Shown here: positions 4,313-41,304 of the stretch, one piece after another
How the letters are laid out: every line of letters begins with the position of its first letter
Position numbering within the stretch: position 1 is the first letter of the stretch
Source of the DNA: a virus
Direction: 5' to 3' (one strand)
DNA length: 43,058 nucleotides
IMG/VR virus record: IMGVR_UViG_3300008267_000256
Span: 1-43,058 of that record
Translations under genes and position numbers: made by a program
The notes under the pieces: model-generated
Database searches by the model: none
What the model saw: only the letters and a program-made list of their open reading frames with translations
What the model was told of the DNA's origin: nothing

Positions 4313-6709
4313 ATGGCAGAAAAAATTGTAAGTCCTGGTGTCTTTACGAACGAGAATGACCTCTCGTTCCTACCAGCCGGCGTTGCACAAATTGGTGCTG
4401 CATTCGTAGGTCCAACAGCAAAAGGACCAGCGTTTGTACCTATCGTACTTAGGAACTTCGAGCAGTTTAAAGCATATTATGGGGATCTTAACGACAGTTA
4501 TTATATCCCGTATGCTGTACGAAATTATTTAAAGAACTCAGCTCAAGTGACTGTAGTTCGCGTTGTAACTGAGGGTGGATATCTCACCAACGGTTTATCT
4601 ATTATCAGCGGTTCTACAATCGTTGGATTCTTGTTACCAACTACGCAAGTAGGACAAAGTACTGGAGCTGACTTCGCAAAAACAACCGGTGGTGGAACAG
4701 TAACAGCTGGAACAGCTTCATTAGTTGTATCTGGTTCAAACGTAACAGCTCAGACTGTTGACGTAAGCTTTACTTCAACAGCTACTAACTACATTATTAA
4801 GGTGTTAGGTAAGTCTGCAAAAGGTGCTAAAAAGCCTTACGCTTATGTTTATTTTGAAGACTATGCAACTGCACAAGCAAGCAAAAACTTCACTGTCGTT
4901 TCTGGTTCAGCTTCTGCGTCAATAGATTTGAGTGGTGCTACTACAGACTATGGTAAATTTAGACCAGGTGTTACTCCATGGGTAACTTCCCAGTTCATCG
5001 GTACCGGTGCTAACAAAGCAGCACAAAACTTATTCAGAGTTAAGACCCAAGGTGATGGTGACTTGTTTAACAGAACATACAAGATCTCTATTATCAACAA
5101 CACTTTAGCTGGATACGTTCCTGGATCTGATTATGGATACTTTACTTTGTTGGTGCGTGATTACAACGATACTGACAAGCGTCCTAACGTACTTGAAACT
5201 TATTCAAACCTTACCCTCGATCCAGATTCTGCAAACTACATTGCTCGTAGAATTGGTGACAGGTATTATGAAGTGGATTCAACAAGTGCTTTCGGTGCGG
5301 AAGTTGTTGCTAAAGGAGAATATCCAAACATCAGCAAACTTATTTATGTTGAAGTGGATACGACTGTTAAAAACAAAGCTATCGACCCAAGTTTGAATCC
5401 TTATGGATTTGCAACTGTTAGTGATACTGTGATTGTACCAGGATGTACATTACCAACAGCTAGCATCGTAAGAGCTAATCCTGAGATTGAAAGTGATTAT
5501 AGCGAAAGAGCTTATTATGGTTGGAATTACACTGCTGCAGATAACGTAAACTATCTCAGACCTATTCCAAACGGTGCTACTACTGGATCAAACACATTGT
5601 TCAATCTTGATGAAGCTACAATCTCTGCAGATTACGGCACTGCAAAAGATGCAAATAGTTCCTTAACAGCTGGCGGTATCATTTCCGCATCAGTATTGAG
5701 AGGTCTTGATGTATCAACTATTGCTAAGTTTAACGTACCATTCCAAAATGGATTTGATGGAGACGATCCAGCAGTACCATTGAACACTGGTGCAAATATC
5801 ACTAGCACTAACGCAGTTGGTATGAATTGCGATTCAGCAGCTTCTTCAGGTTCAGTATCTTATGCAAAAGCACTTAACATCATGTCAAATGCTGAAACAT
5901 TCGATATCAACTTACTTGCAATGCCAGGTGTTAACATGGCAGATCACAAGCCTGTAATTGACAAAGCTATCGATGTTGCTACAAACAGAGGTGATACTTT
6001 CGTAGTAATTGACCCAGTTAAACAAAGTCAAACTATCGGAGTAGCAATCAGTGGTGTAGAAAATAGCTTAGTAGATAGTAACTACGCAGCTGCTTACTGG
6101 CCATGGGTTAAAATCCTTGACGTAAACAAGAACAAGCCAGTTTGGGTACCTGCATCAACTGTTATCCCAGGTGTAATTGCTAAATCAGATGCTTCTTCAT
6201 TTGAATGGTTTGCTCCTGCTGGTCTAAACAGAGGTGGTATTCCTGACGCTCTTGAAGTAGAAGCTAAGCTTAGCGTATCACAGCGTGACTCTTTGTATGA
6301 TGCTCGTATCAACCCACTTGCAAGCTTCCCAGCTCAGGGTGTGTGTGTATGGGGTCAGAAGACTCTGCAAACTAAGCCAAGCGCTCTTGACCGCGTTAAC
6401 GTAAGACGTTTGATGATTACTTTGAAGAAGTATATCGCAAGCTCTACTCGTTACCTTGTATTCGAAAACAATACTGTTGAAACACGTCAGCGTTTCCTCA
6501 ACATTGTAACTCCTTATCTTGAGAATGTTAAAGCTCGCCAAGGTCTGTACGGTTTCCGTGTAGTAATGGATGAGTCTAACAACACTCCTGACATTATCGA
6601 TCGTAACATCCTTTATGGTCAGATCTTCGTACAGCCTACCAAGACCGCAGAATTTATTGTCCTTGACTTTAATATCTTGCCAACTGGAGCAACTTTTGAT
6701 AACGCGTAA
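4313..6709 (+). CDS. Tail sheath protein (T4 gp18-like)
   Basis: A 798-residue protein that would form the contractile outer tail cylinder. It opens with the typical sheath N-terminus (VSPGVFTNENDLSF, then AFVGPTAKGPAFVPIVLRNF). The C-terminal third carries the conserved sheath core (residues ~610-798), including LNRGGIPDALEVEAKLSVSQ, NPLASFPAQGVCVWGQKT, RVNVRRLMITLKKYI and an ending in FIVLDFNILPTGATF. It is longer than T4 gp18 (about 660 residues); the extra length sits in the middle, as expected for variable outer domains. The tube gene follows after 27 nt with no terminator, so the two are likely co-transcribed. This stretch uses a noticeably different codon mix (more C-ending codons) from its neighbours, consistent with high expression. 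Confidence 0.95.
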   Translation: MAEKIVSPGVFTNENDLSFLPAGVAQIGAAFVGPTAKGPAFVPIVLRNFEQFKAYYGDLNDSYYIPYAVRNYLKNSAQVTVVRVVTEGGYLTNGLSIISGSTIVGFLLPTTQVGQSTGADFAKTTGGGTVTAGTASLVVSGSNVTAQTVDVSFTSTATNYIIKVLGKSAKGAKKPYAYVYFEDYATAQASKNFTVVSGSASASIDLSGATTDYGKFRPGVTPWVTSQFIGTGANKAAQNLFRVKTQGDGDLFNRTYKISIINNTLAGYVPGSDYGYFTLLVRDYNDTDKRPNVLETYSNLTLDPDSANYIARRIGDRYYEVDSTSAFGAEVVAKGEYPNISKLIYVEVDTTVKNKAIDPSLNPYGFATVSDTVIVPGCTLPTASIVRANPEIESDYSERAYYGWNYTAADNVNYLRPIPNGATTGSNTLFNLDEATISADYGTAKDANSSLTAGGIISASVLRGLDVSTIAKFNVPFQNGFDGDDPAVPLNTGANITSTNAVGMNCDSAASSGSVSYAKALNIMSNAETFDINLLAMPGVNMADHKPVIDKAIDVATNRGDTFVVIDPVKQSQTIGVAISGVENSLVDSNYAAAYWPWVKILDVNKNKPVWVPASTVIPGVIAKSDASSFEWFAPAGLNRGGIPDALEVEAKLSVSQRDSLYDARINPLASFPAQGVCVWGQKTLQTKPSALDRVNVRRLMITLKKYIASSTRYLVFENNTVETRQRFLNIVTPYLENVKARQGLYGFRVVMDESNNTPDIIDRNILYGQIFVQPTKTAEFIVLDFNILPTGATFDNA

Positions 6710-6736: not shown

Positions 6737-7234
6737 ATGGCAACATTAATCCCAGAAAACGGTCCCAACGGTATATTTTATACCAATTACGAACCAAAAA
6801 CACAGAATAGATTTATCATGCAGATTGGAGGCATCCCAGCCTTCATCTGCAAGAAAGTCACTCGTCCCAACATCGATTGTGGAGAGGTAGTAATTGATCA
6901 CATCAACCTTGTACGCAAACTGAAAGGTAAGTGTAAGTGGCAAGATATGTCAATGACTCTTTACGATCCGATTGTTCCTTCAGGCGCACAAACAGTAATG
7001 GAGTGGATCAGAACAGCTCACGAATCAGCAACTGGTCGTGATGGATACGCAGACTTCTACAAGAAGGATATGCAGATTCAAACTCTTGGACCTGTAGGTG
7101 ATATCGTTGAACAATGGACTATCAAAGGTGCATTCATTAAGACTGCAAACTTCGGTCAGTTAGATTGGTCAACTGAAACCCAAGTTGAAATCGAACTCAC
7201 AATCGGTTTAGACTGGGCACTGCTTGAATACTAA
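6737..7234 (+). CDS. Tail tube protein (T4 gp19-like)
   Basis: 165 residues, nearly the length of T4 gp19 (163). It should form the inner tail tube inside the sheath. It has the usual tube layout: an N-terminal segment with NRFIMQIGGIPAFICKKVTR, a central WQDMSMTLYDPI, and a C-terminal WTIKGAFIKTANFGQLDWST followed by EIELTIGLDWALLEY. It sits 27 nt behind the sheath gene and is followed at once by a rho-independent terminator, as expected for a two-gene, highly expressed sheath-tube unit. Confidence 0.93.
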   Translation: MATLIPENGPNGIFYTNYEPKTQNRFIMQIGGIPAFICKKVTRPNIDCGEVVIDHINLVRKLKGKCKWQDMSMTLYDPIVPSGAQTVMEWIRTAHESATGRDGYADFYKKDMQIQTLGPVGDIVEQWTIKGAFIKTANFGQLDWSTETQVEIELTIGLDWALLEY

Positions 7235-7332: not shown

Positions 7333-8205
7333 ATGTCAAAAGTTGTAGGCGATCTTCCACCAAGAGCAGATGCTCTCTCAAACGAAGAAATTAAAGCAAT
7401 GTTTGCAGCAGAAAAAGCTGCTTACGAAGGAACACCAGTCCAAATTAAAAATGACTTTCCAACGGAGATTATCGATCTACCGTCAAAAGGATATTTCTAT
7501 CCCGAAGGACATGCACTAGCTAGCGGTACTATTGAAATGAAGTACATGACAGCTAAGGAAGAAGACATTTTATCTTCTGCAACTTTAATTAAACAAGGTG
7601 TAGTACTTGATAGACTTATTCAGTCTTTGATTATTACAAAAGTTAAGTATGATGATCTCTTAGTTGCAGATAAAAATGCACTACTGATAGCATCAAGAAT
7701 CTTAGCTTACGGACCTGAGTACAGTGTTGAGGTTACTTGTCCAAATTGCGGTACAAAAAACAAAGTAGATGTGGACTTACAACAGTTTGAATCAAAGGAT
7801 ATTAGCTTTGATAACTTACAAAAAGGTAAAACAGAATTGGATTTTACATTCCCAATCTGCAAAAAGCACATTACTTTTAAATTCTTGACTCATGGTGACG
7901 AAAAACTCATCGAGCAAGACATTAAAGGATATAATAAGATGAGAGCATTACATGGAGTTGATCCACAACTATCAACTAGATTAAAGCATCTCATTACTTC
8001 TGTTGAAGGAGAAAGAGACACTGCAGCAATTAATAAGTTTGTAGACAATCTTCTATCAAGAGACTCATTGGCTTTGAGAAACTATCTCAAAGAAATCACA
8101 CCAGATATTGATTTAACATTTAACTTTAGCTGCAACAACTGTGATTATACCAATGAGAAGATGTTGTTGCCGCTTGACGTCTCCTTTTTTTGGCCTGGGG
8201 CCTAA
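7333..8205 (+). CDS. T4 gp26-like baseplate/tail assembly protein (zero-frame product)
   Basis: 290 residues. The pattern IIDLPSKGYFYPEGHALASG, then MKYMTAKEEDIL, is characteristic of the phage T4 gp26 family of baseplate hub/tail assembly proteins. Two CxxC pairs (CPNC near residue 137 and CNNC near residue 269) could bind zinc. The frame ends at 8203-8205 just after a run of seven T (8185-8191). A second frame continues the protein in a gene just upstream of the tape measure, the position in which many tailed phages place a frameshifted tail chaperone pair (lambda G and GT). This zero-frame form would be the major product. Confidence 0.8.
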   Translation: MSKVVGDLPPRADALSNEEIKAMFAAEKAAYEGTPVQIKNDFPTEIIDLPSKGYFYPEGHALASGTIEMKYMTAKEEDILSSATLIKQGVVLDRLIQSLIITKVKYDDLLVADKNALLIASRILAYGPEYSVEVTCPNCGTKNKVDVDLQQFESKDISFDNLQKGKTELDFTFPICKKHITFKFLTHGDEKLIEQDIKGYNKMRALHGVDPQLSTRLKHLITSVEGERDTAAINKFVDNLLSRDSLALRNYLKEITPDIDLTFNFSCNNCDYTNEKMLLPLDVSFFWPGA

Positions 8206-8389
8206 CTATAGGCCCGTTCTGTATGATCAGATCTTTGATCTGATGTACTACGGTAAATTTGGTTTAACCTTTACCGAAGTATATGGAATGCCAGTATTCC
8301 TACGCAACTACTACTACAGAAAATTAGCAGATATTCGTAGAAGAGAAAACGAGGAGTACGAGAAAGAATCAAAAAAAGCAAAGAGATAG
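8141..8389 (+). CDS. Probable frameshift extension of the gp26-like protein
   Basis: An open frame overlapping the gp26-like gene by 65 bases, in +1 relation to it. The only nearby start is a GTG at 8141 without a ribosome binding site, and the first ~17 codons merely shadow the upstream gene. The convincing part begins near 8192 and encodes NYRPVLYDQIFDLMYYGKFG, then GMPVFLRNYYYRKLADIRRR and a charged helix. The (M)P-LR-YY-KL pattern is like the T part of tail assembly chaperones. It is best read as joined to the upstream frame at the T7 run, giving a product of about 351 residues. Confidence 0.7.
   Translation: MIIPMRRCCCRLTSPFFGLGPNYRPVLYDQIFDLMYYGKFGLTFTEVYGMPVFLRNYYYRKLADIRRRENEEYEKESKKAKR
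8185..8215 (+). promoter_or_regulatory. Candidate programmed ribosomal frameshift signal
   Basis: A T7 run (8185-8191) read TTT TTT T in the zero frame is followed, after 6 nt, by a perfect 7-bp stem-loop: GGGCCTA (8198-8204), loop ACTA, TAGGCCC (8209-8215). The zero-frame stop TAA (8203-8205) lies in the stem. A +1 slip on the T run re-pairs perfectly and leads into the downstream frame. Confidence 0.65.
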
Positions 8390-8442: not shown

Positions 8443-8751
8443 ATGAAAAGGAGTGATCTACGTCAAGTAATAAAAGAAGAATACGACAATCTTATGTTAG
8501 AAGGAATTTTAAGTTGGATGGTAGACAAGGTTGCAAATGCTGCAAAGTGGTATGCCGATAAAAAAGCTCAGTATAATTACGAAGCACTAATGAGTAGTAA
8601 AGAGTTTAGATCACTTGCCAAGAATTACGGTATGGATGAGGATAAGTTTGTTGCAAAAGCAAAGCAGCTAGTAAAAGATAATCCAAAAAGATTTATTGAG
8701 CTACTTGACTTCGATGTCAGCAAGTCCAAGTATCGCAAATTTATGAAATAA
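8443..8751 (+). CDS. Small helical protein with putative capsid-targeting N-terminus
   Basis: 102 residues, charged and mostly helical. The N-terminus MKRSDLRQVIKEEYDNLMLE matches the pattern K-x3-R-x-(L/V)-I-(R/K)-E-E-(I/Y)-x2-(V/L)-M-x-E shared with the proteins starting at 30775 and 31274. It ends in LMLE-G, a possible prohead protease site (hydrophobic-X-Glu). The remainder (residues 30-102) shows no family I recognise. It lies 3 nt before the tape measure, so it may instead be a tail component; the shared N-terminus argues for packaging in the head. Confidence 0.6.
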   Translation: MKRSDLRQVIKEEYDNLMLEGILSWMVDKVANAAKWYADKKAQYNYEALMSSKEFRSLAKNYGMDEDKFVAKAKQLVKDNPKRFIELLDFDVSKSKYRKFMK

Positions 8752-8754
8752 TAA

Positions 8755-11700
8755 ATGGCAGAATTGGGACCAGAAGGTTTGGATGATTTCCAAGATCGCA
8801 TAGACGAGCTTGGTGATTACCTATTTACTACGCTTACAAATAGTGTTGAAGCAGCTGCTCAATCTGCAAATCTTAGTGCTTTTAGCAAAAACCTCACAGT
8901 TGAATTATCAAAGGGGTTATTAAACGTACAAGTTGATAAAATACTTACCGATAAGCTTTTAAAGGACACCAAAGTACAAAAGGTGATGGCCGACGTTCAA
9001 AAGAAATTTGAAGACGGTGTAAGTAAAATAAACTTTAAAGTAAACAATATACAGCTACCAACAGAACCACTTTTTGTAGATATAAAAGCAAACAACTTTG
9101 ATACAACAGGTCTCGCAAAAGCATTACAAGTACCGGTAGTATTTAATTATGAAAAACTTTTATTACCTAAAGCAGAATCGGTTGAAGTACCGGTTGAATT
9201 TTTATATGACAAGTTTCAATTACCAAAAACATCACGAGTACTAGTAAATGTAAAATATGCTTACGAGAAGTTCATACAGCCAAAAGCCAGTGATCTAGAA
9301 GTATCTGTCTCTTATTTGTATGACAAATTCACACTACCCAAATCACAAAAGATAGGTGTACCGGTTGAGTATGAATATGAAAAGCTAGCGTTACCTAGAG
9401 TAACTGGAATTACCATACCGGTAGGATTTAATTATGATAAATTTGCATTACCTAAAGCTCAATCGCTTGATGTGTTTGTAGATTATGTATATGATAAGTT
9501 TATTTTACCAAAGGCTACACCAGTAAGTGTACAAGTTAAGTATGCTTATGAAAAGTTCATACTACCTAAAGTAAACGACTTATCTGTATCAGTAAAGTAC
9601 TTGTATGATAAGTTTGCATTACCTAAAATAAATAATATACAGGTGCCTGTGAGCTTTGCGTATGATGATTTGAGTTTACCAAAAGAAAGTTTAGACGTTC
9701 CAGTCCACTACAAATATGATAAGTTAGTACTACCAAAATCTTCACCAATAAATGTATTGGTTGGATATGTGTATGATAAGTTTACTATACCAAAACCAAC
9801 TACTGTTAATGTACCGGTTAAGTATAGTTACGATAAATTTACTTTACCTATCAATAAAAGCATTAATGTAGCCGTAGAGTATGTTTACAGTAAGCTATCA
9901 TTACCAAAATCTTCAATCACAGTACCTGTAGATTACCAATATGAATCCTTTAAATTACCAAAGGATCAAGTAATAGACGTATTTGTTGATTTTATATATA
10001 CTAAGTTTGAATTACCAAAAGTAAACCCAGTCAACGTTGCAGTCAAATATGCATATGATAAATTTGTACAACCACTAGTAAGCGATATATCAGTTAGTGT
10101 CAAGTATGTATATGACAAGTTTACCTTACCTAAGATAAGTAACGTAGTTATACCAGTTGTGTATGATTATGACGATCTTATTATACCAAAAAGTCAAGTT
10201 GTCGATGTTTTTGTTGACTATGTTTACACTAAGTTCGAGTTACCAAAAGCTCAACAAATCAATATACCGGTAGCATTTAATTATGCTAAGTTTACATTAC
10301 CGAAAGCCGGGTCAATTGATGTAGCAGTTGAGTACATATACGATAAGTTCCAGCTACCAAAGGCTATACCAATTAAAGTACCTGTAAGCTTTATATATGA
10401 CAAATTTGCTTTACCAAAAGCAAGTATGATTACAGTGCCTGTTAGCTATGATTATGAAGACTACACACAACCAGAAGTCGAAGATGTATCTGTATCAGTA
10501 AGTTACGATTACGATAAGCTTATTTTGCCTAAATCGCAGGTAGTAGATGTGTTTGTTGATTTTGTATATAGCAAACTTCAATTGCCGAAAGCAAGTAAAA
10601 TACAAGTACCTGTAGAATACAAATATCAAAAACCTGTAGAGCAAAAGAAGCAACAGCTCACAGTGCAGGTTAAATATAGCTATGATAAATTTATTGCACC
10701 GGTAGTTAAGGCTATTACAGTTCCAGTAAAGTATTTGTATGATAAGTTTCAATTACCTAAGGTTGGTAACTTGACTGTGAATGTACAACCGATAACAACA
10801 GAGTTAGATGCATTATCAGATGTTGGATTAACTGCAAAAGTGACTGAATTCGACACTAATTTAATTCAGCAAACGATACAAAGCTTAGATCCAATAAACA
10901 TAAATGCTACAACTGCACCACTTAGCTCATTTGCTACACTAACAACGACCGTATCTGATGCAGGCAATGCAGCTGCCTCGTTAGTAAATTTAATTGATCA
11001 AGCTAATAAGAAAGCGGCGATAACTGTTGATCTATATAATAAAATAAAAGATGCAGCAGATCAATTAGTAGCAGCTAAAAAGATGGAAAGAGATAGCGCA
11101 GATGCTATCATAAAGTCATTACAAAGCAAATTAAAGCTACCAACAACAAAGTTAAGCGCTAAAGTAACAGATGTTAATACATCAAAGATTGACAAAGCAC
11201 TAGAATCATACAAACCAGCACAACTCAGTGCAATTATGAACTTAGAGTCATCTAGTGTTGATAAATTACAAAACATGGCTCCAGCACAAGTGCCAGTAAC
11301 GGTAACAGATGTTGGAACAATAACAACAGCAATAAAAGATGCAATACTTGAAGCCGCTAACAGTGTGAGCGAGATGTTCTCAGGTATTGAATCTGGTTTT
11401 GGTGATGCACTCGCTAAAGGATTTAATAAAGGTAAGAATAAAATAAAAGGTGCAACTTTACTCGATACCATTACTGCAGAAATAAAGAGCTACGAAAAGG
11501 CGCAAGATGATGCAGCTCTGAAAGGTAAGATACTCACCTTAATGGCAGATAAAACAGTATCATCTGAAAGAGCGGCATTAATGATTGCGTTAGACGCTCA
11601 AAAACAAAAGTTGGAATCATTAGCTACGCAACAAAAAGCATTACTTACTGAGTTAAACATTGCTAAAGCAGAGGCGAATAGAGCTAGTAATTTAGAAGAA

Positions 11701-14280
11701 GTTGCAAAGTTACAAGAAGAAATACTACAAGCACAAAGTGACTTAACAGGATACAAAAATGAAATAGCTTTATTAAATATTAAGGGAAAGAAGCTTGATG
11801 ATATGATATCTTCTCAAGAAAGTCTAACTGCTGCAGCTGCAGAAGAGAAGAGAATTAAAGAAAAGATATCTGAAATATATGAAAAGCATTTTGATATAAT
11901 AAATGAAATTAAGTCTGTAAGTGCGCAGGTTAAAGATGTATTTAAGAGTCAAGAATTAGCATTAGCTACGTTGGCTGGAAGTGCAGCTGTACTTGGACAT
12001 CGTTTGACTTACTCCATGCATGATTTTAAAAGTATTGGCATGGACGCGGCAACGGCGGTACAAGCAAGCTTCAACTCACTGTCAATAAAATCCATAATGG
12101 GATTGAGTGATACAGTTGGCGTAACCAAACAATTAGTATCTGAGTTTGGATCATTAAATACACTAACAACAAGCCAAGTAGATGCAGTTGGTCAACTTGC
12201 ACATAATAATGGAATGGCCGGTGAAGAAGCAGCAAGCATGGTTATGGCTATGTCTCGCATGCCAGGTATGACAAAGGAGATGGCTTCTAATAGTGAGGAG
12301 ATGTTTAAGCAGATTGGTAAAACAAAAGGCGTTATACCAGCTCAAATTATGAAAGAAGTTGCTAAGAATTCTAGTCTAATGGCAACTTACAGTAGAGGTG
12401 GTGCTAAAGGATTTATAGAAGCAGCTGCATCTGCTAAGAAGATGGGTGTGGAGTTAGGTAACATGCTTGGAGCAGCTCGTAAAACATTAGACTTTGAATC
12501 AAGCATCAATGCTGAAATGGAAGCATCTGCCTTGTTAGGTAGAAGCATGAATTTTGATTCACTTAGGCGAGCAGCTTTATCTGGCGACGCAAATGCTATA
12601 CTGAGAGAGCAAACAAGACTTATCCAACAAGCAGGTGGGTTAGACAGGATGAATGTCCTACAAAAGGAGAAGCTTGCTGAAGCAATGGGAATGTCTGTTG
12701 ATGAGATGGTTAAGATGAGTGAGCAAGCTAAATATCAAGAAGAGCATTTTGGTGAGCAAGCAAGTATATGGGCAAAAATCACAGGATACACAGCTAAGTA
12801 CACAGAAGGACTAATAAATGGCTTTACACAAATAGCACCACTAGCAACAGGACTTGCGAGTATAATGAGTCTTTTAAATGCGAAGTCTTTACCAGGCATG
12901 GTTAAGAGTGTTTGGACTATGGTTAAAGGTTTGACAGCTGGTGTGTTTCAAGCAGGTTTACTATTGCTTAAATTTATAGCAATTGGTGCTTTAAAACTGT
13001 TTAAAGCAGATACGTGGACAGGAATGGCTAAAGGTATACGTGGAGCGGTAGACGCAACTAAGGGATTTACATTTCAAGGAGCTATCAAAGGACTGACAAC
13101 AGTAAAAGATAGATTGAAGGAACTTGTAATGAGCGCATCTTCAGATAAAGTTAAAGAAGCCCTTAGTGGAGGAGGTGTTAGTGGACCATCGTTTGCAGAT
13201 AAGCGCAAGATGGTGTTAGAAAGGCGGAGAGCAGGTGGAGGATTGTCACCAGCAACGCCACCATCACCACCGACGGGAGGTGTAGGTCCAACAGACCAAG
13301 CAGATAAAATTAGTAAAATAAACGCAGCCTCATTGTTGAAGGGAGCAGCAGCAATGCTAGTTGCAGCTGCAGCAATTTATGTTTTTGCAAAGGCAGTACA
13401 AGAATTAGATAAAGTAAAAAATTGGAAAACAGTTGCTATTGGATTAGGTTTATTTGCAGGAGCAATGGCTATAACAGCGTTAATATTATCAAAAGCAGGA
13501 CCAGGAATTGCAATAGCAAGCTTGGCATTAATACCATTTGGTTTAGCTTTAATGATGTTTGCTAAAGCTATTAGTATAGCAGCACCAGCAATAGCAATGT
13601 TGGGAGCAGCATTTGGATCCTTTGTAACGATTGTTAGTAAAAATATAGGTGGATTTATTGCTGTTGCTTTGGGGTTACCATTACTAGCAGCTGGGATTAC
13701 TATGTTAGGTATAGCATCAATATTTGCATTACCAGCAGCAGGAGCGCTTACCATACTTGGAATTGGTATAGCAGCTTTTGGTAAGTTGGCTGGAGTAGCC
13801 GCTCCAGGTATAGTTGCAGTCGCGACTTCATTAGCAGTTATATCAAAAGTTAATTCAAGTAATTTCAAGAATGTTGGTGACGGCTTATTCCATATAGCAA
13901 AAGGATTAGGAGCAATAGCTTTTACTGGATTGGCTGCAGTACCAGTACTGACAGCGTTATCTAAACTCAACATGGTAGCACCACAAGCACCACAAACACC
14001 AATAGCAAAGGCAGCGCCAGTTGGTGCAAAAACAACACAACCTGCAGTGCAAGCAATGGCCCCAGCACCAGCAGCTGCTGTTGGACCTGCAGTTGGATCG
14101 CAAGCCACAACAAGTGCAACAAAATCAGCTAAAGAATCAAGTCAAGATATATCTATATTAGTAGGGAAGTTAACTGAGCTTATATCTGTCTTGAAGGCAG
14201 GTGGAACGATAAACGTTGATGGTAAAAAACTTGCTAGTATTGTACTAAGTAATATTCGTGGACTTATATACACCGACTAA
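8755..14280 (+). CDS. Tape measure protein with a 29-unit repeat region
   Basis: 1841 residues, by far the longest gene, directly behind the tail chaperone genes, where tape measures normally lie. Layout: residues 1-120 soluble; 124-670 a run of 29 repeats of about 19 residues (consensus VPVxYxYDKFxLPK); 670-870 Ala/Thr-rich; 900-1090 long charged coiled coil; 1090-1340 helical, Met/Ala-rich core; ~1345-1420 and 1525-1720 strongly hydrophobic, Ala/Gly/Ile-rich segments typical of tape measures that insert in the host membrane; a Pro/Ala linker near 1745; and a short conserved tail ending NIRGLIYTD. At the usual 1.5 angstrom per residue the tail would be some 270 nm, but the repeats look beta-rich, so this rule may not hold. 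No lysozyme or peptidase domain seen. Confidence 0.9.
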   Translation: MAELGPEGLDDFQDRIDELGDYLFTTLTNSVEAAAQSANLSAFSKNLTVELSKGLLNVQVDKILTDKLLKDTKVQKVMADVQKKFEDGVSKINFKVNNIQLPTEPLFVDIKANNFDTTGLAKALQVPVVFNYEKLLLPKAESVEVPVEFLYDKFQLPKTSRVLVNVKYAYEKFIQPKASDLEVSVSYLYDKFTLPKSQKIGVPVEYEYEKLALPRVTGITIPVGFNYDKFALPKAQSLDVFVDYVYDKFILPKATPVSVQVKYAYEKFILPKVNDLSVSVKYLYDKFALPKINNIQVPVSFAYDDLSLPKESLDVPVHYKYDKLVLPKSSPINVLVGYVYDKFTIPKPTTVNVPVKYSYDKFTLPINKSINVAVEYVYSKLSLPKSSITVPVDYQYESFKLPKDQVIDVFVDFIYTKFELPKVNPVNVAVKYAYDKFVQPLVSDISVSVKYVYDKFTLPKISNVVIPVVYDYDDLIIPKSQVVDVFVDYVYTKFELPKAQQINIPVAFNYAKFTLPKAGSIDVAVEYIYDKFQLPKAIPIKVPVSFIYDKFALPKASMITVPVSYDYEDYTQPEVEDVSVSVSYDYDKLILPKSQVVDVFVDFVYSKLQLPKASKIQVPVEYKYQKPVEQKKQQLTVQVKYSYDKFIAPVVKAITVPVKYLYDKFQLPKVGNLTVNVQPITTELDALSDVGLTAKVTEFDTNLIQQTIQSLDPININATTAPLSSFATLTTTVSDAGNAAASLVNLIDQANKKAAITVDLYNKIKDAADQLVAAKKMERDSADAIIKSLQSKLKLPTTKLSAKVTDVNTSKIDKALESYKPAQLSAIMNLESSSVDKLQNMAPAQVPVTVTDVGTITTAIKDAILEAANSVSEMFSGIESGFGDALAKGFNKGKNKIKGATLLDTITAEIKSYEKAQDDAALKGKILTLMADKTVSSERAALMIALDAQKQKLESLATQQKALLTELNIAKAEANRASNLEEVAKLQEEILQAQSDLTGYKNEIALLNIKGKKLDDMISSQESLTAAAAEEKRIKEKISEIYEKHFDIINEIKSVSAQVKDVFKSQELALATLAGSAAVLGHRLTYSMHDFKSIGMDAATAVQASFNSLSIKSIMGLSDTVGVTKQLVSEFGSLNTLTTSQVDAVGQLAHNNGMAGEEAASMVMAMSRMPGMTKEMASNSEEMFKQIGKTKGVIPAQIMKEVAKNSSLMATYSRGGAKGFIEAAASAKKMGVELGNMLGAARKTLDFESSINAEMEASALLGRSMNFDSLRRAALSGDANAILREQTRLIQQAGGLDRMNVLQKEKLAEAMGMSVDEMVKMSEQAKYQEEHFGEQASIWAKITGYTAKYTEGLINGFTQIAPLATGLASIMSLLNAKSLPGMVKSVWTMVKGLTAGVFQAGLLLLKFIAIGALKLFKADTWTGMAKGIRGAVDATKGFTFQGAIKGLTTVKDRLKELVMSASSDKVKEALSGGGVSGPSFADKRKMVLERRRAGGGLSPATPPSPPTGGVGPTDQADKISKINAASLLKGAAAMLVAAAAIYVFAKAVQELDKVKNWKTVAIGLGLFAGAMAITALILSKAGPGIAIASLALIPFGLALMMFAKAISIAAPAIAMLGAAFGSFVTIVSKNIGGFIAVALGLPLLAAGITMLGIASIFALPAAGALTILGIGIAAFGKLAGVAAPGIVAVATSLAVISKVNSSNFKNVGDGLFHIAKGLGAIAFTGLAAVPVLTALSKLNMVAPQAPQTPIAKAAPVGAKTTQPAVQAMAPAPAAAVGPAVGSQATTSATKSAKESSQDISILVGKLTELISVLKAGGTINVDGKKLASIVLSNIRGLIYTD
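9124..10764 (+). repeat. 29 tandem ~57-bp repeats in the tape measure gene
   Basis: I count 29 consecutive units with the pattern V-x-(F/Y)-x-Y-(D/E)-K-(F/L)-x-L-P-K, for example VDYVYDKFILPK, VKYAYEKFILPK and VKYLYDKFALPK. Spacing is about 19 residues. DNA identity between units is limited, so the array is old or under diversifying pressure. Higher-order order is visible: a VFVD unit recurs at units 7, 16, 20 and 26, and units 7-10 resemble units 16-19. Poor matches are unit 13 (LPI), 17 (QPL), 24, 27 and 28. Confidence 0.9.
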
Positions 14281-34005: not shown

Positions 34006-34764
34006 ATGCCAACAACATTAATACAACAAAAACCTACCTTCGATAAAAAGGTAGAAGGAGACAATAAACTTATCATAGCAGAAATGTTCTCAGACACCAT
34101 TCAAGGTGAAGGTGTGAATGCAGGTGTTACATCAACATTTGTAAGATTACAAGGTTGTACACTACAATGTGTGTGGTGTGATACTCTGGACGTATGGCCA
34201 CATGGCAATGAATATAGCTTTGATGAAATATTTGCTATGTTTGAGTCTATTGACCTTATAACAAGGTTTAAGCAAGGCCAACATTTAATCTTAACAGGCG
34301 GATCACCACTAAAACAGCAACGCAGATTAGTAGCCTTTTTAGAAGCATTCTATAACAAGTACTCCTTCTTTCCATATACGGAAATTGAGAATGAAGGTGT
34401 ACTGATGCCGGATGCTGATTTAGCAGCTTTGATTAGCTGTTGGAATAATAGTCCAAAGCTCGCCAACTCTGGTATGAAAGAGAAGGCTAGATACAAGCCT
34501 GAGGTTATTAAAGACCTAGCACAAAGACCTAATTCTTGGTTTAAGTTTGTAGTTGCACAAGAATCAGATTGGCAAGAGATTGAAGACTTTTATCTCAAGC
34601 CTGGTTTGATTAATAGAAATCAGATTATTATCATGCCGGAAGGCCAAACACAAGATGAACTCTCTAAAACAAGAGAGATAGCAGCAGATGTAGCTATTAA
34701 AGAAAGTGTTAGATTTACTGATAGGATGCACGTTACTATTTGGAACAAGAAAACTGGAGTATAA
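34006..34764 (+). CDS. queE: 7-carboxy-7-deazaguanine synthase (QueE), radical SAM
   Basis: 252 residues. IAEMFSDTIQGEG is the QueE N-terminal motif; the radical SAM Cys cluster is CTLQCVWC (CX3CX2C) followed by DT; HLILTGGSPLKQQRRLVAFL is the SAM-binding GGEP-like segment, here GGSP. Substrate-binding WFKFVVAQESDW and IIIMPEGQTQDEL follow. It converts 6-carboxytetrahydropterin to 7-carboxy-7-deazaguanine with a 4Fe-4S cluster, SAM and Mg. It is 3 nt behind queD and overlaps the next gene (TAATG), so it forms part of a precursor pathway operon. Confidence 0.88.
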   Translation: MPTTLIQQKPTFDKKVEGDNKLIIAEMFSDTIQGEGVNAGVTSTFVRLQGCTLQCVWCDTLDVWPHGNEYSFDEIFAMFESIDLITRFKQGQHLILTGGSPLKQQRRLVAFLEAFYNKYSFFPYTEIENEGVLMPDADLAALISCWNNSPKLANSGMKEKARYKPEVIKDLAQRPNSWFKFVVAQESDWQEIEDFYLKPGLINRNQIIIMPEGQTQDELSKTREIAADVAIKESVRFTDRMHVTIWNKKTGV

Positions 34765-39235: not shown

Positions 39236-39412
39236 ATGACAGATACAAAAGAATATATAATAGTACAAGATAAGGTCCAGCTAATGGACCTTTTCCGTCA
39301 TATCACAGACTCAAAGATAATTGCGTACGATATTACATGCTTAAAGGTAAAAAGCTCATTATGCATAACGGATCTTTTGATATTAGATACACCAAGTGTT
39401 ACTTTGGTATAG
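39236..39412 (+). pseudogene. N-terminal fragment of the second family A polymerase
   Basis: The ATG at 39236 opens a frame encoding MTDTKEYIIVQDKVQLMDLF then RHITDSKIIAYDIT, which is the start of a 3'-5' exonuclease domain just reaching the exo I strand (normally ...YDTET...). After about 39334 the frame carries unrelated residues and stops at 39412, while the matching continuation (LKGKKLIMHNGSFD) is in another frame. The stretch between exo I and exo II, normally tens of residues, is missing. Confidence 0.7.
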
Positions 39413-41304
39413 ACTTGCGTGAAGATCTGTATTGTGATACGATGTTACTTAGGCATACACTTAAGGAGGACGGCCCTTTTGGTTTAAAAGATATCGCAAT
39501 CGAATTACAGAACGAACTCGAATTAGATGTAGAAAGACAAGCCAACGAAGAGCAACTATTAATGAAAGAAAACATTAAGAAGAATGGTGGCTCAGTGTCA
39601 AAAGAAAACTATGAGATCTACAAAGCTGATATGGACTTGCTTGGCAAGTACGCAGCAGCAGATACTGACTTAACACTTCGTGTAGCTACATACTACCTAC
39701 CAGTATTAGAAGAGCAGAAACTTTGGGACTTCTTCTTTACTGAGGAGGTAATGCCTCTTTATAGAGAGGTTACTATATCAATGGAAGAGGGTGGTACACT
39801 TCTCAATATTGACTACATTAAACAAGTCAAGCAAGATATCACAGTTGAACTCAAGCAATTAGAAAATGATATAGTGAAAGAACTTGTATCCTATCCAGAA
39901 GTTCAGAAGTGGGCTATGGACAGAGCTTACAATAATTATAAACCTAACACAAGAGGCTCTTATATACAAAAACTATTAGAACTTACTAAACAAACTCACT
40001 TACCTTTATCAGATAAAGGTAAATACAAAGTTAACGCGAAAACGGCATACTTACTAACAAACGAGTCAGTTAAACAGTTTGTACAGACAGGTAATGAGAG
40101 TAGTTTAGATAATACGTTAAAGATGAACGTATGTCTACAATTAATGAAAGAAGATGAAGGTTCTCTCATTAATATCAGCAGTAAACAGCAGATGGCTGAT
40201 ATATGCTTCAACTATCTCGGAGTTAAACCTCTATCACAAACACGCAAAGGTACTGATCAGTTTAATGAAGACTTGGTAGAGCATTTGTCAAGAGACTACG
40301 TGTGGGCTGCTAAGTTGCATGATTATAATAAGCTAATTAAAATTAACAGTGCGTACATAGATAGATTCCTAGAAGGAAACGAGAATGGTAGATATTATTG
40401 GTACTTCAAGCAACATGGCACAACTAGTGGTCGATTTAGCTCGGACTGTCAGCAAATACCACGTGTATTAGAGCCAGGCGAGGTTAGTGACTTGGTACTC
40501 AAGTATAACAACATACTACGCAGTTTCTTAGTGGCAGAGGAGGGTCGTAAGTTTATTATATGTGACCAGAGTTCTCTAGAACCAAGAGTGTTTGCTAGCG
40601 TAAGTGGTGATCCCAATCTCATTAACGTATTTGTTAACAATGAAGACCTTTATAGTAGAGTTGCTATTCAGGCTTTCAAACTAAAAGGCATGTCGGCGAA
40701 TAAAAAGGATGAAAACTATGTTAAAAACATTAGACCTGAGTTAAGACAAAGAGCTAAGTCTATTGCACTTGCTATTCCTTATGGAGCAGGTGCTTGGCAG
40801 ATTGGACAAACATTAAACATACCAATTCAACAAGCTCAAGGATTAATAGATGGTTACCTGGAAGGTTTTCCTGAGTTAGCTCGATGGATGTCGGATACTA
40901 ACTTGAGAGCTCAAACTATTGGACAAATCAGATCAAAAACTGGTAGGATTAGACACTTAGAGAGAGTTGCGCAGATATATGGTCACTTTGAAGACAACTT
41001 GATGGACCCTCGCACCTTTGGTCAGATGAAAAGAACTATGAAATCTCCTGACCAACAGCAAAAGTTAATTAAGCTTAGGATGGAGTATAAGAATGGTCTT
41101 AACAATGCGAAGAATTTCCAAATACAATCACTAGCAGCATCTATTATGAACAGATCAGCTGAATTTGTAATCAACTCAAGCGAAAAACACGCAGATCATG
41201 CAGCTAAGATTATAAAGAAATGTATGGAGACAACTGTACAAATTGAGACTGGGCTAGTAGCTGAACCAAATATTTGTGATAATTTTGGATCTGGGCATGC
41301 ATAA
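39337..41304 (+). CDS. Family A DNA polymerase lacking exo I and palm motif C
   Basis: 655 residues from an internal ATG. Present: exo II MHNGSFDIRY, exo III YAAADTDLTLRV, TTSGRFSSDCQQIPR, motif A FIICDQSSLEPRVFASVSGD and motif B RQRAKSIALAIPYGAGAWQI. After the NFQIQSLAASIMNRSAEFVI helix the sequence jumps to SSEKHADHAAKIIKKCMETT and AEPNICDNFG, which normally follow motif C (HDE). No HDE or equivalent exists in between, so about 25-30 residues with a catalytic Asp are absent, in frame. With the N-terminal loss (see 39236) neither proofreading nor polymerisation would be expected. An HNH gene follows 60 nt downstream. Confidence 0.85.
   Translation: MLKGKKLIMHNGSFDIRYTKCYFGIDLREDLYCDTMLLRHTLKEDGPFGLKDIAIELQNELELDVERQANEEQLLMKENIKKNGGSVSKENYEIYKADMDLLGKYAAADTDLTLRVATYYLPVLEEQKLWDFFFTEEVMPLYREVTISMEEGGTLLNIDYIKQVKQDITVELKQLENDIVKELVSYPEVQKWAMDRAYNNYKPNTRGSYIQKLLELTKQTHLPLSDKGKYKVNAKTAYLLTNESVKQFVQTGNESSLDNTLKMNVCLQLMKEDEGSLINISSKQQMADICFNYLGVKPLSQTRKGTDQFNEDLVEHLSRDYVWAAKLHDYNKLIKINSAYIDRFLEGNENGRYYWYFKQHGTTSGRFSSDCQQIPRVLEPGEVSDLVLKYNNILRSFLVAEEGRKFIICDQSSLEPRVFASVSGDPNLINVFVNNEDLYSRVAIQAFKLKGMSANKKDENYVKNIRPELRQRAKSIALAIPYGAGAWQIGQTLNIPIQQAQGLIDGYLEGFPELARWMSDTNLRAQTIGQIRSKTGRIRHLERVAQIYGHFEDNLMDPRTFGQMKRTMKSPDQQQKLIKLRMEYKNGLNNAKNFQIQSLAASIMNRSAEFVINSSEKHADHAAKIIKKCMETTVQIETGLVAEPNICDNFGSGHA

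Follow-up and report, generated by a model that had tools for sequence, protein, structure and literature searches.

Comparative evidence for a programmed +1 frameshift in a gp26-type tail assembly chaperone gene of a T4-like phage

Frameshifting of the G/GT type in tail chaperone genes has been described as a widely conserved trait of phages with long tails, 'except T4' (PMC5009743), and the usual direction in such genes is backwards; -1 on a heptamer is the commonest form without being universal. In lambda, two overlapping open reading frames occupy the interval between the tube and tape measure genes, and a -1 shift on a heptamer near the 3' end of the first frame extends the protein by a small domain at its C terminus (Xu, Hendrix, Duda 2004; reviewed in PMC5009743). 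T4 has two genes of one family and no frameshift, with gp26 as the short member and gp51 as the longer one; this two-gene solution is published. Both the encoding of a short and a long chaperone by separate genes in T4-like phages and the presence of poly-T -1 signals in T4-like TAC genes are attributed to Vladimirov et al. 2022 by papers that cite it (PMC10885494 and PMC12846349, respectively). A +1 chaperone shift has been proposed for the HF1-group haloviruses, in which the chaperone locus precedes the tape measure gene and the site is TTT-CGC, a UUU_Y site (PMC7230728). The RF2 gene (prfB) shifts by +1 re-pairing of a P-site YUU_U at CUU_UGA; CUU_U is the prfB site, UUU_U is found in a minority of prfB genes, and UUU_Y is especially +1-prone in bacteria (PMC5009743). 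Cases of +1 frameshifting in gp26-type genes are not described in the literature that we searched, which did not include Vladimirov et al. 2022 itself.

The gp26-like locus

We analysed a stretch of viral DNA of 43,058 nucleotides (IMG/VR record IMGVR_UViG_3300008267_000256, positions 1 to 43,058; the window), which is a fragment of a T4-like phage. The features at and around the locus are as follows.

4313-6709: sheath gene, upstream of the tube gene
6737-7234, + strand: tail tube protein, gp19-like (phrog_4542 tail tube, 5e-24)
7333-8205, + strand: gp26-like putative tail assembly chaperone, the 290-aa short form read in the zero frame (...DVSFFWPGA*)
8185-8191, + strand: slippery run TTTTTTT, with predicted P-site UUU at 8188-8190 and A-site UGG at 8191-8193
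8192-8389, + strand: +1-frame extension, 65 codons and a stop, predicted C-terminal domain of a 351-aa long form (+1 homologues, dN/dS, helical model)
8198-8204, + strand: 5' arm of a 7-bp stem, GGGCCTA, 6 nt after the T run (covariation within one clade)
8203-8205, + strand: zero-frame stop codon TAA (ORF listing)
8209-8215, + strand: 3' arm of the stem, TAGGCCC (covariation within one clade)
8443-8751, + strand: small ORF (102 aa) in the chaperone/tape measure interval, no PHROG or Pfam match
8755-14280, + strand: putative tape measure protein, 1841 aa, from its position and a gene in the same place in Flavobacterium phage immuto

As in lambda, the overlapping pair of reading frames (7333-8389) sits between the tube gene and the putative tape measure gene. 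A family search with the latter gave no match; in immuto, the gene in this position is annotated as tail tape measure. The gp26-like protein belongs to the PF12322 (T4_baseplate) family (58.8 bits, cut-off 24.5) and matches phrog_150 (baseplate hub) at 1.5e-18. The predicted folds nearest to its AlphaFold model (pLDDT 84.5) are those of T4-like hub proteins, and among PDB folds the highest-probability match is the HK97 TAC 2OB9, a weak one (prob 0.25, E 2.6). Family and position together point to a chaperone function. The system would be lambda G/GT-like in its working and is of the gp26 family by domain; what sets it apart from lambda is the predicted direction and the site, a forward step by one at YUU_Y instead of -1 on a heptamer.

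The +1-frame extension and the shift site in relatives

The gp26-like gene ends in ...TCC TTT TTT TGG CCT GGG GCC TAA. An earlier note on this DNA had placed the end of the gene right after a run of seven T residues; the run is there and is the only TTTTTTTGG in the window, and the gene ends 12-14 nt past it. The +1 frame spans 8186 to 8389 and reaches 61 codons beyond the zero-frame stop. The sole start codon upstream in this frame, a GTG at 8141, falls within the preceding gene; the earlier note had described a continuation lacking a credible start. The length given there (65 codons) is slightly corrected to a conserved unit of ~66 residues, taking the shift site as its beginning. This unit is basic and helical (helical model, pLDDT 84), the short-form part and the extension having been modelled separately and not as a fused product. 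The proposed resemblance to the T domain of lambda did not hold up: there is no detectable sequence match (hhalign E 0.73), and the extension matches those of other gp26-type genes instead.

Relatives were fetched with the gp26 part alone, without requiring the T run or the extension, which yielded about 190 loci, down to ~40% identity. Among the viral loci with a recognised extension, 174 of 176 have its homologue in the +1 frame, as do 9/9 MAG contigs, mostly labelled Flavobacteriales or other Bacteroidota. Isolates with this arrangement are Microcystis phage Mel-JY01 and Flavobacterium phage immuto; more distant +1 cases are Bacillus phage SP-15, Listeria phage LIS04, Streptococcus phage GXN1, and Rhodothermus phage RM378. 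Nothing in the plasmid collection matched the extension. None of the close relatives has one uninterrupted frame, which the earlier note had named as an outcome that would speak against a shift. In the window, the -1 frame closes 12 codons after the stop, and the close relatives are all +1; the locus is accordingly not of the -1 heptamer type (X_XXY_YYZ). The dN/dS of the extension (53 independent pairs) is 0.098 in the +1 frame and 1.87 and 1.42 in the other frames, compared with 0.153 for gp26 itself. By this comparison, the extension evolves as a protein only in the +1 frame, and it is phase-fixed and under protein selection, as is typical of G/GT-type genes.

The site itself is also conserved. 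Site and start-codon statistics were calculated from 157 nonredundant +1 loci, all of which (157/157) have a YUU_Y site. The first codon is TTT, TTC, or CTT and the second TTT, CTT, or CTA, giving variants such as TTT TTT TGG, TTC TTT TGG, TTT CTT TGG, and TTT CTA TTC. The second codon is TTT or CTT in 156/157, corresponding to the YUU_U of RF2, and CUU_U is found in 20+ relatives. Where it encodes Phe it is always TTT (135/135, versus 80% TTT and 20% TTC at other Phe codons), and where it encodes Leu it is CTT in 21/22 (versus 18% CTT elsewhere). On the gp26 tree, we counted one TTT/TTC change at codon 1 and none at codon 2, compared with 12-20 at six conserved control Phe columns. The A-site codon is UGG in 142 loci, UAC in 9, UUC in 3, CUC in 2, and CAC in 1. 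Unlike in prfB, the A-site codon is never a stop; the family also lacks a general SD-like element just upstream and is not known to be autoregulatory. The haloviruses differ in being archaeal and in having CGC instead of UGG in the A site, and are likened here by locus and site, not by gp26 homology. In L205 (2670-2712), a Winogradskyella MAG contig, the run is T8 (TTT TTT TTC) and the extension is still in the +1 frame.

Altogether, these comparisons strongly support the claim of the earlier note that a gp26-type homologue shifts into the +1 frame, and we consider it very probable that the gene is decoded by a programmed +1 frameshift into two isoforms. According to this reading, most ribosomes would read TTT TTT TGG CCT GGG GCC TAA and terminate, yielding the 290-aa short form. 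In a minority, tRNA-Phe on the second UUU (8188-8190) would slip by +1 and re-pair on 8189-8191, omitting one U and continuing from GGC (8192), and the slip would add a helical domain of ~65 residues to give the 351-aa long form (...VSFF-GLGPNYR...). If lambda G/GT is taken as the model, the tape measure may be coated by the short form, and tube subunits may be recruited by the long form, the rarer of the two; neither isoform would be expected in the virion.

Alternative explanations, site losses, and the downstream stem

The earlier note had left open whether the slip is +1 or -2. Mu-type -2 slippage on U7 would reach the same frame, with the product ...SFFFGLG..., and U7 permits P-site re-pairing two bases back. 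However, the sites TTC TTT TGG (L100-L108, L110-L114), TTT CTT TGG (18 loci), and TTT CTA TTC (L004) keep the same frame and allow no -2 re-pairing, and we regard this route as very unlikely. Homopolymer runs are prone to slippage, and RNA polymerase slippage on T7 that deleted one U in some of the mRNA would, by plain translation, give the identical protein; yet at least 35 loci with an interrupted homopolymer (longest T run 3-4) show the frame arrangement unchanged, making this explanation extremely improbable. TTC TTT TGG permits YUU_Y re-pairing at codon 2 only and TTT CTA TTC at codon 1 only. Because the YUU_Y P-site step is the only one common to all variants, +1 slippage fits, whereas -2 and homopolymer slippage do not fit all of them. 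A homopolymer of seven also invites the suspicion of a sequencing or assembly error in a gene that is truly single-frame, a miscount that the earlier note had itself raised. But ~180 relatives are alike, many of them without a long homopolymer, and they include isolates (Mel-JY01, immuto, SP-15, GXN1) as well as metagenomes; this repetition refutes an error for the family, and we give it practically no weight.

The extension might also be a separate gene with an independent start or translated by termination-reinitiation. Mel-JY01 and immuto carry it as a separate small CDS annotation, and the two exceptions to the +1 rule, L109 and L115, have an ATG of their own just past the stop. On the other hand, 48/157 nonredundant loci have no ATG, GTG, or TTG in the +1 frame ahead of the conserved core, and there the extension cannot be an ordinary separate gene; moreover, conservation sets in exactly at the shift site, and a separate gene leaves the fixed +1 phase and the constraint on the T run unaccounted for. 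We therefore hold a separate gene to be highly unlikely as the general arrangement. L109 and L115 are sisters nested within the TTT CTT clade of the gp26 tree. They have lost the UUU codon (sites TTC TTG TAT and TTC CTT TGG), and their extension (L109, 2718 ff.; L115, 2715 ff.) is a separate ORF in another phase, starting a few nt past the gp26 stop. Loss of the UUU step thus coincides with gain of a start codon in these two loci. Because L115 retains CUU_U despite its split gene, the codon alone is insufficient to infer a shift. Including these two natural losses, the ~180 natural site variants are material for studying +1 slippage without an A-site stop.

Returning to the programmed +1 shift, the earlier note had listed a perfect 7-bp stem-loop, 6 nt after the T run and containing the stop codon, as part of the recoding signal and had proposed that relatives be checked for T run and stem. 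In the window, the stem is exactly as described, with seven pairs and a 4-nt loop, and the stop codon straddles stem and loop. T run, frame, and extension recur across ~180 relatives, which is more than chance would give. The stem does not belong to the general signal: it is present in 21/21 members of one clade, where it can be shortened to 6 bp around a larger loop, and in L048, and it is absent from the remaining ~140 loci. Aligning these 22 sequences, we found 94.6% of cells paired and changes on both sides in 4/7 pairs, and the covariation score was reached by 0/500 shuffles. A conserved stem with covariation at the spacing of hairpin-stimulated frameshifting (5-9 nt past the site) occurs in these 22 loci only. 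From its clade-limited presence and its covariation, we conclude that the stem is a real, lineage-specific element in stimulator position. In the clade of the window phage, the hairpin would lie where the mRNA enters the ribosome during the shift and would probably raise efficiency. The A-site UGG is not a stop codon and, with a usage of 10.5 per 1000, not very rare; outside the stem clade this speaks against the +1 reading, as such slippage usually needs a pause.

The stem alone folds at -13 kcal/mol (z -1.4), and at -24.5 (z -4.3) together with a second strong hairpin just past it (8221-8248; ATCAGATC-TTT-GATCTGAT), the like of which is found in L013 and a few other relatives only. An SD-like upstream stimulator was considered as a general element and rejected: GGG at codon -3 shows no more than a mild enrichment and is missing in the stem clade. 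Neither the Rfam scan nor the tRNA scan of the window gave a hit.

Distant homologues and routes to the long form

Homologues of the same gene in PA5oct-type phages (Paride), XacN1, Atu_ph07, LR756511, and IMG/VR locus L201 have a -1-frame extension. Their sites, U_UUU_UUC or U_UUU_UUU, lie at the same FF position as in the +1 group, and a comparison of profiles shows homology between the -1 and the +1 extensions (hhalign prob 92, E 7.4e-8). Searches with SP-15, RM378, and PA5oct found 1-3 viral loci per query, and these distant groups rest on few sequences. T4 gp26 and gp51 both match PF12322 and phrog_150, and gp51 is longer by a C-terminal extension. The profile of the fused product matches gp51 at E 2.8e-5; taken by itself, the extension matches the tail of gp51 only weakly (E 0.003-0.1).

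It seems likely that, within one chaperone family, four routes that can replace one another lead to the long form, all at the FF position: a +1 shift at YUU_Y (window lineage, SP-15/GXN1, RM378), a -1 shift at U_UUU_UU(C/U) (PA5oct, XacN1, Atu_ph07), a split gene (L109/L115), and duplication (T4 gp26/gp51). The isoform pair would be conserved while the decoding route drifts. That distant relatives of T4 gp26/gp51 would frameshift, by +1 in the large lineage of the window phage, ties T4 to the general scheme. The comparison also corrects the annotation of public genomes, in which the extension is listed as a separate hypothetical protein or missed.

Three further observations concern other genes of the window. 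Residues ~110-690 of the putative tape measure protein consist of ~28 tandem 19-residue repeats (V.VPV.Y.YDKF.LPK...; period-19 identity 0.39), which might serve in setting tail length or in chaperone binding; the longest downstream ORFs of the relatives, in the parts that were fetched, showed no comparable repeat. Replication genes follow. The DNA polymerase ORF (39337-41304) matches phrog_17 (1445 long) over positions 729-1165 only, so the N-terminal part of the polymerase may be encoded separately. A QueE-like radical SAM gene (34006-34764; phrog_2076, 7.5e-52) suggests a 7-deazaguanine pathway and, possibly, DNA modification.
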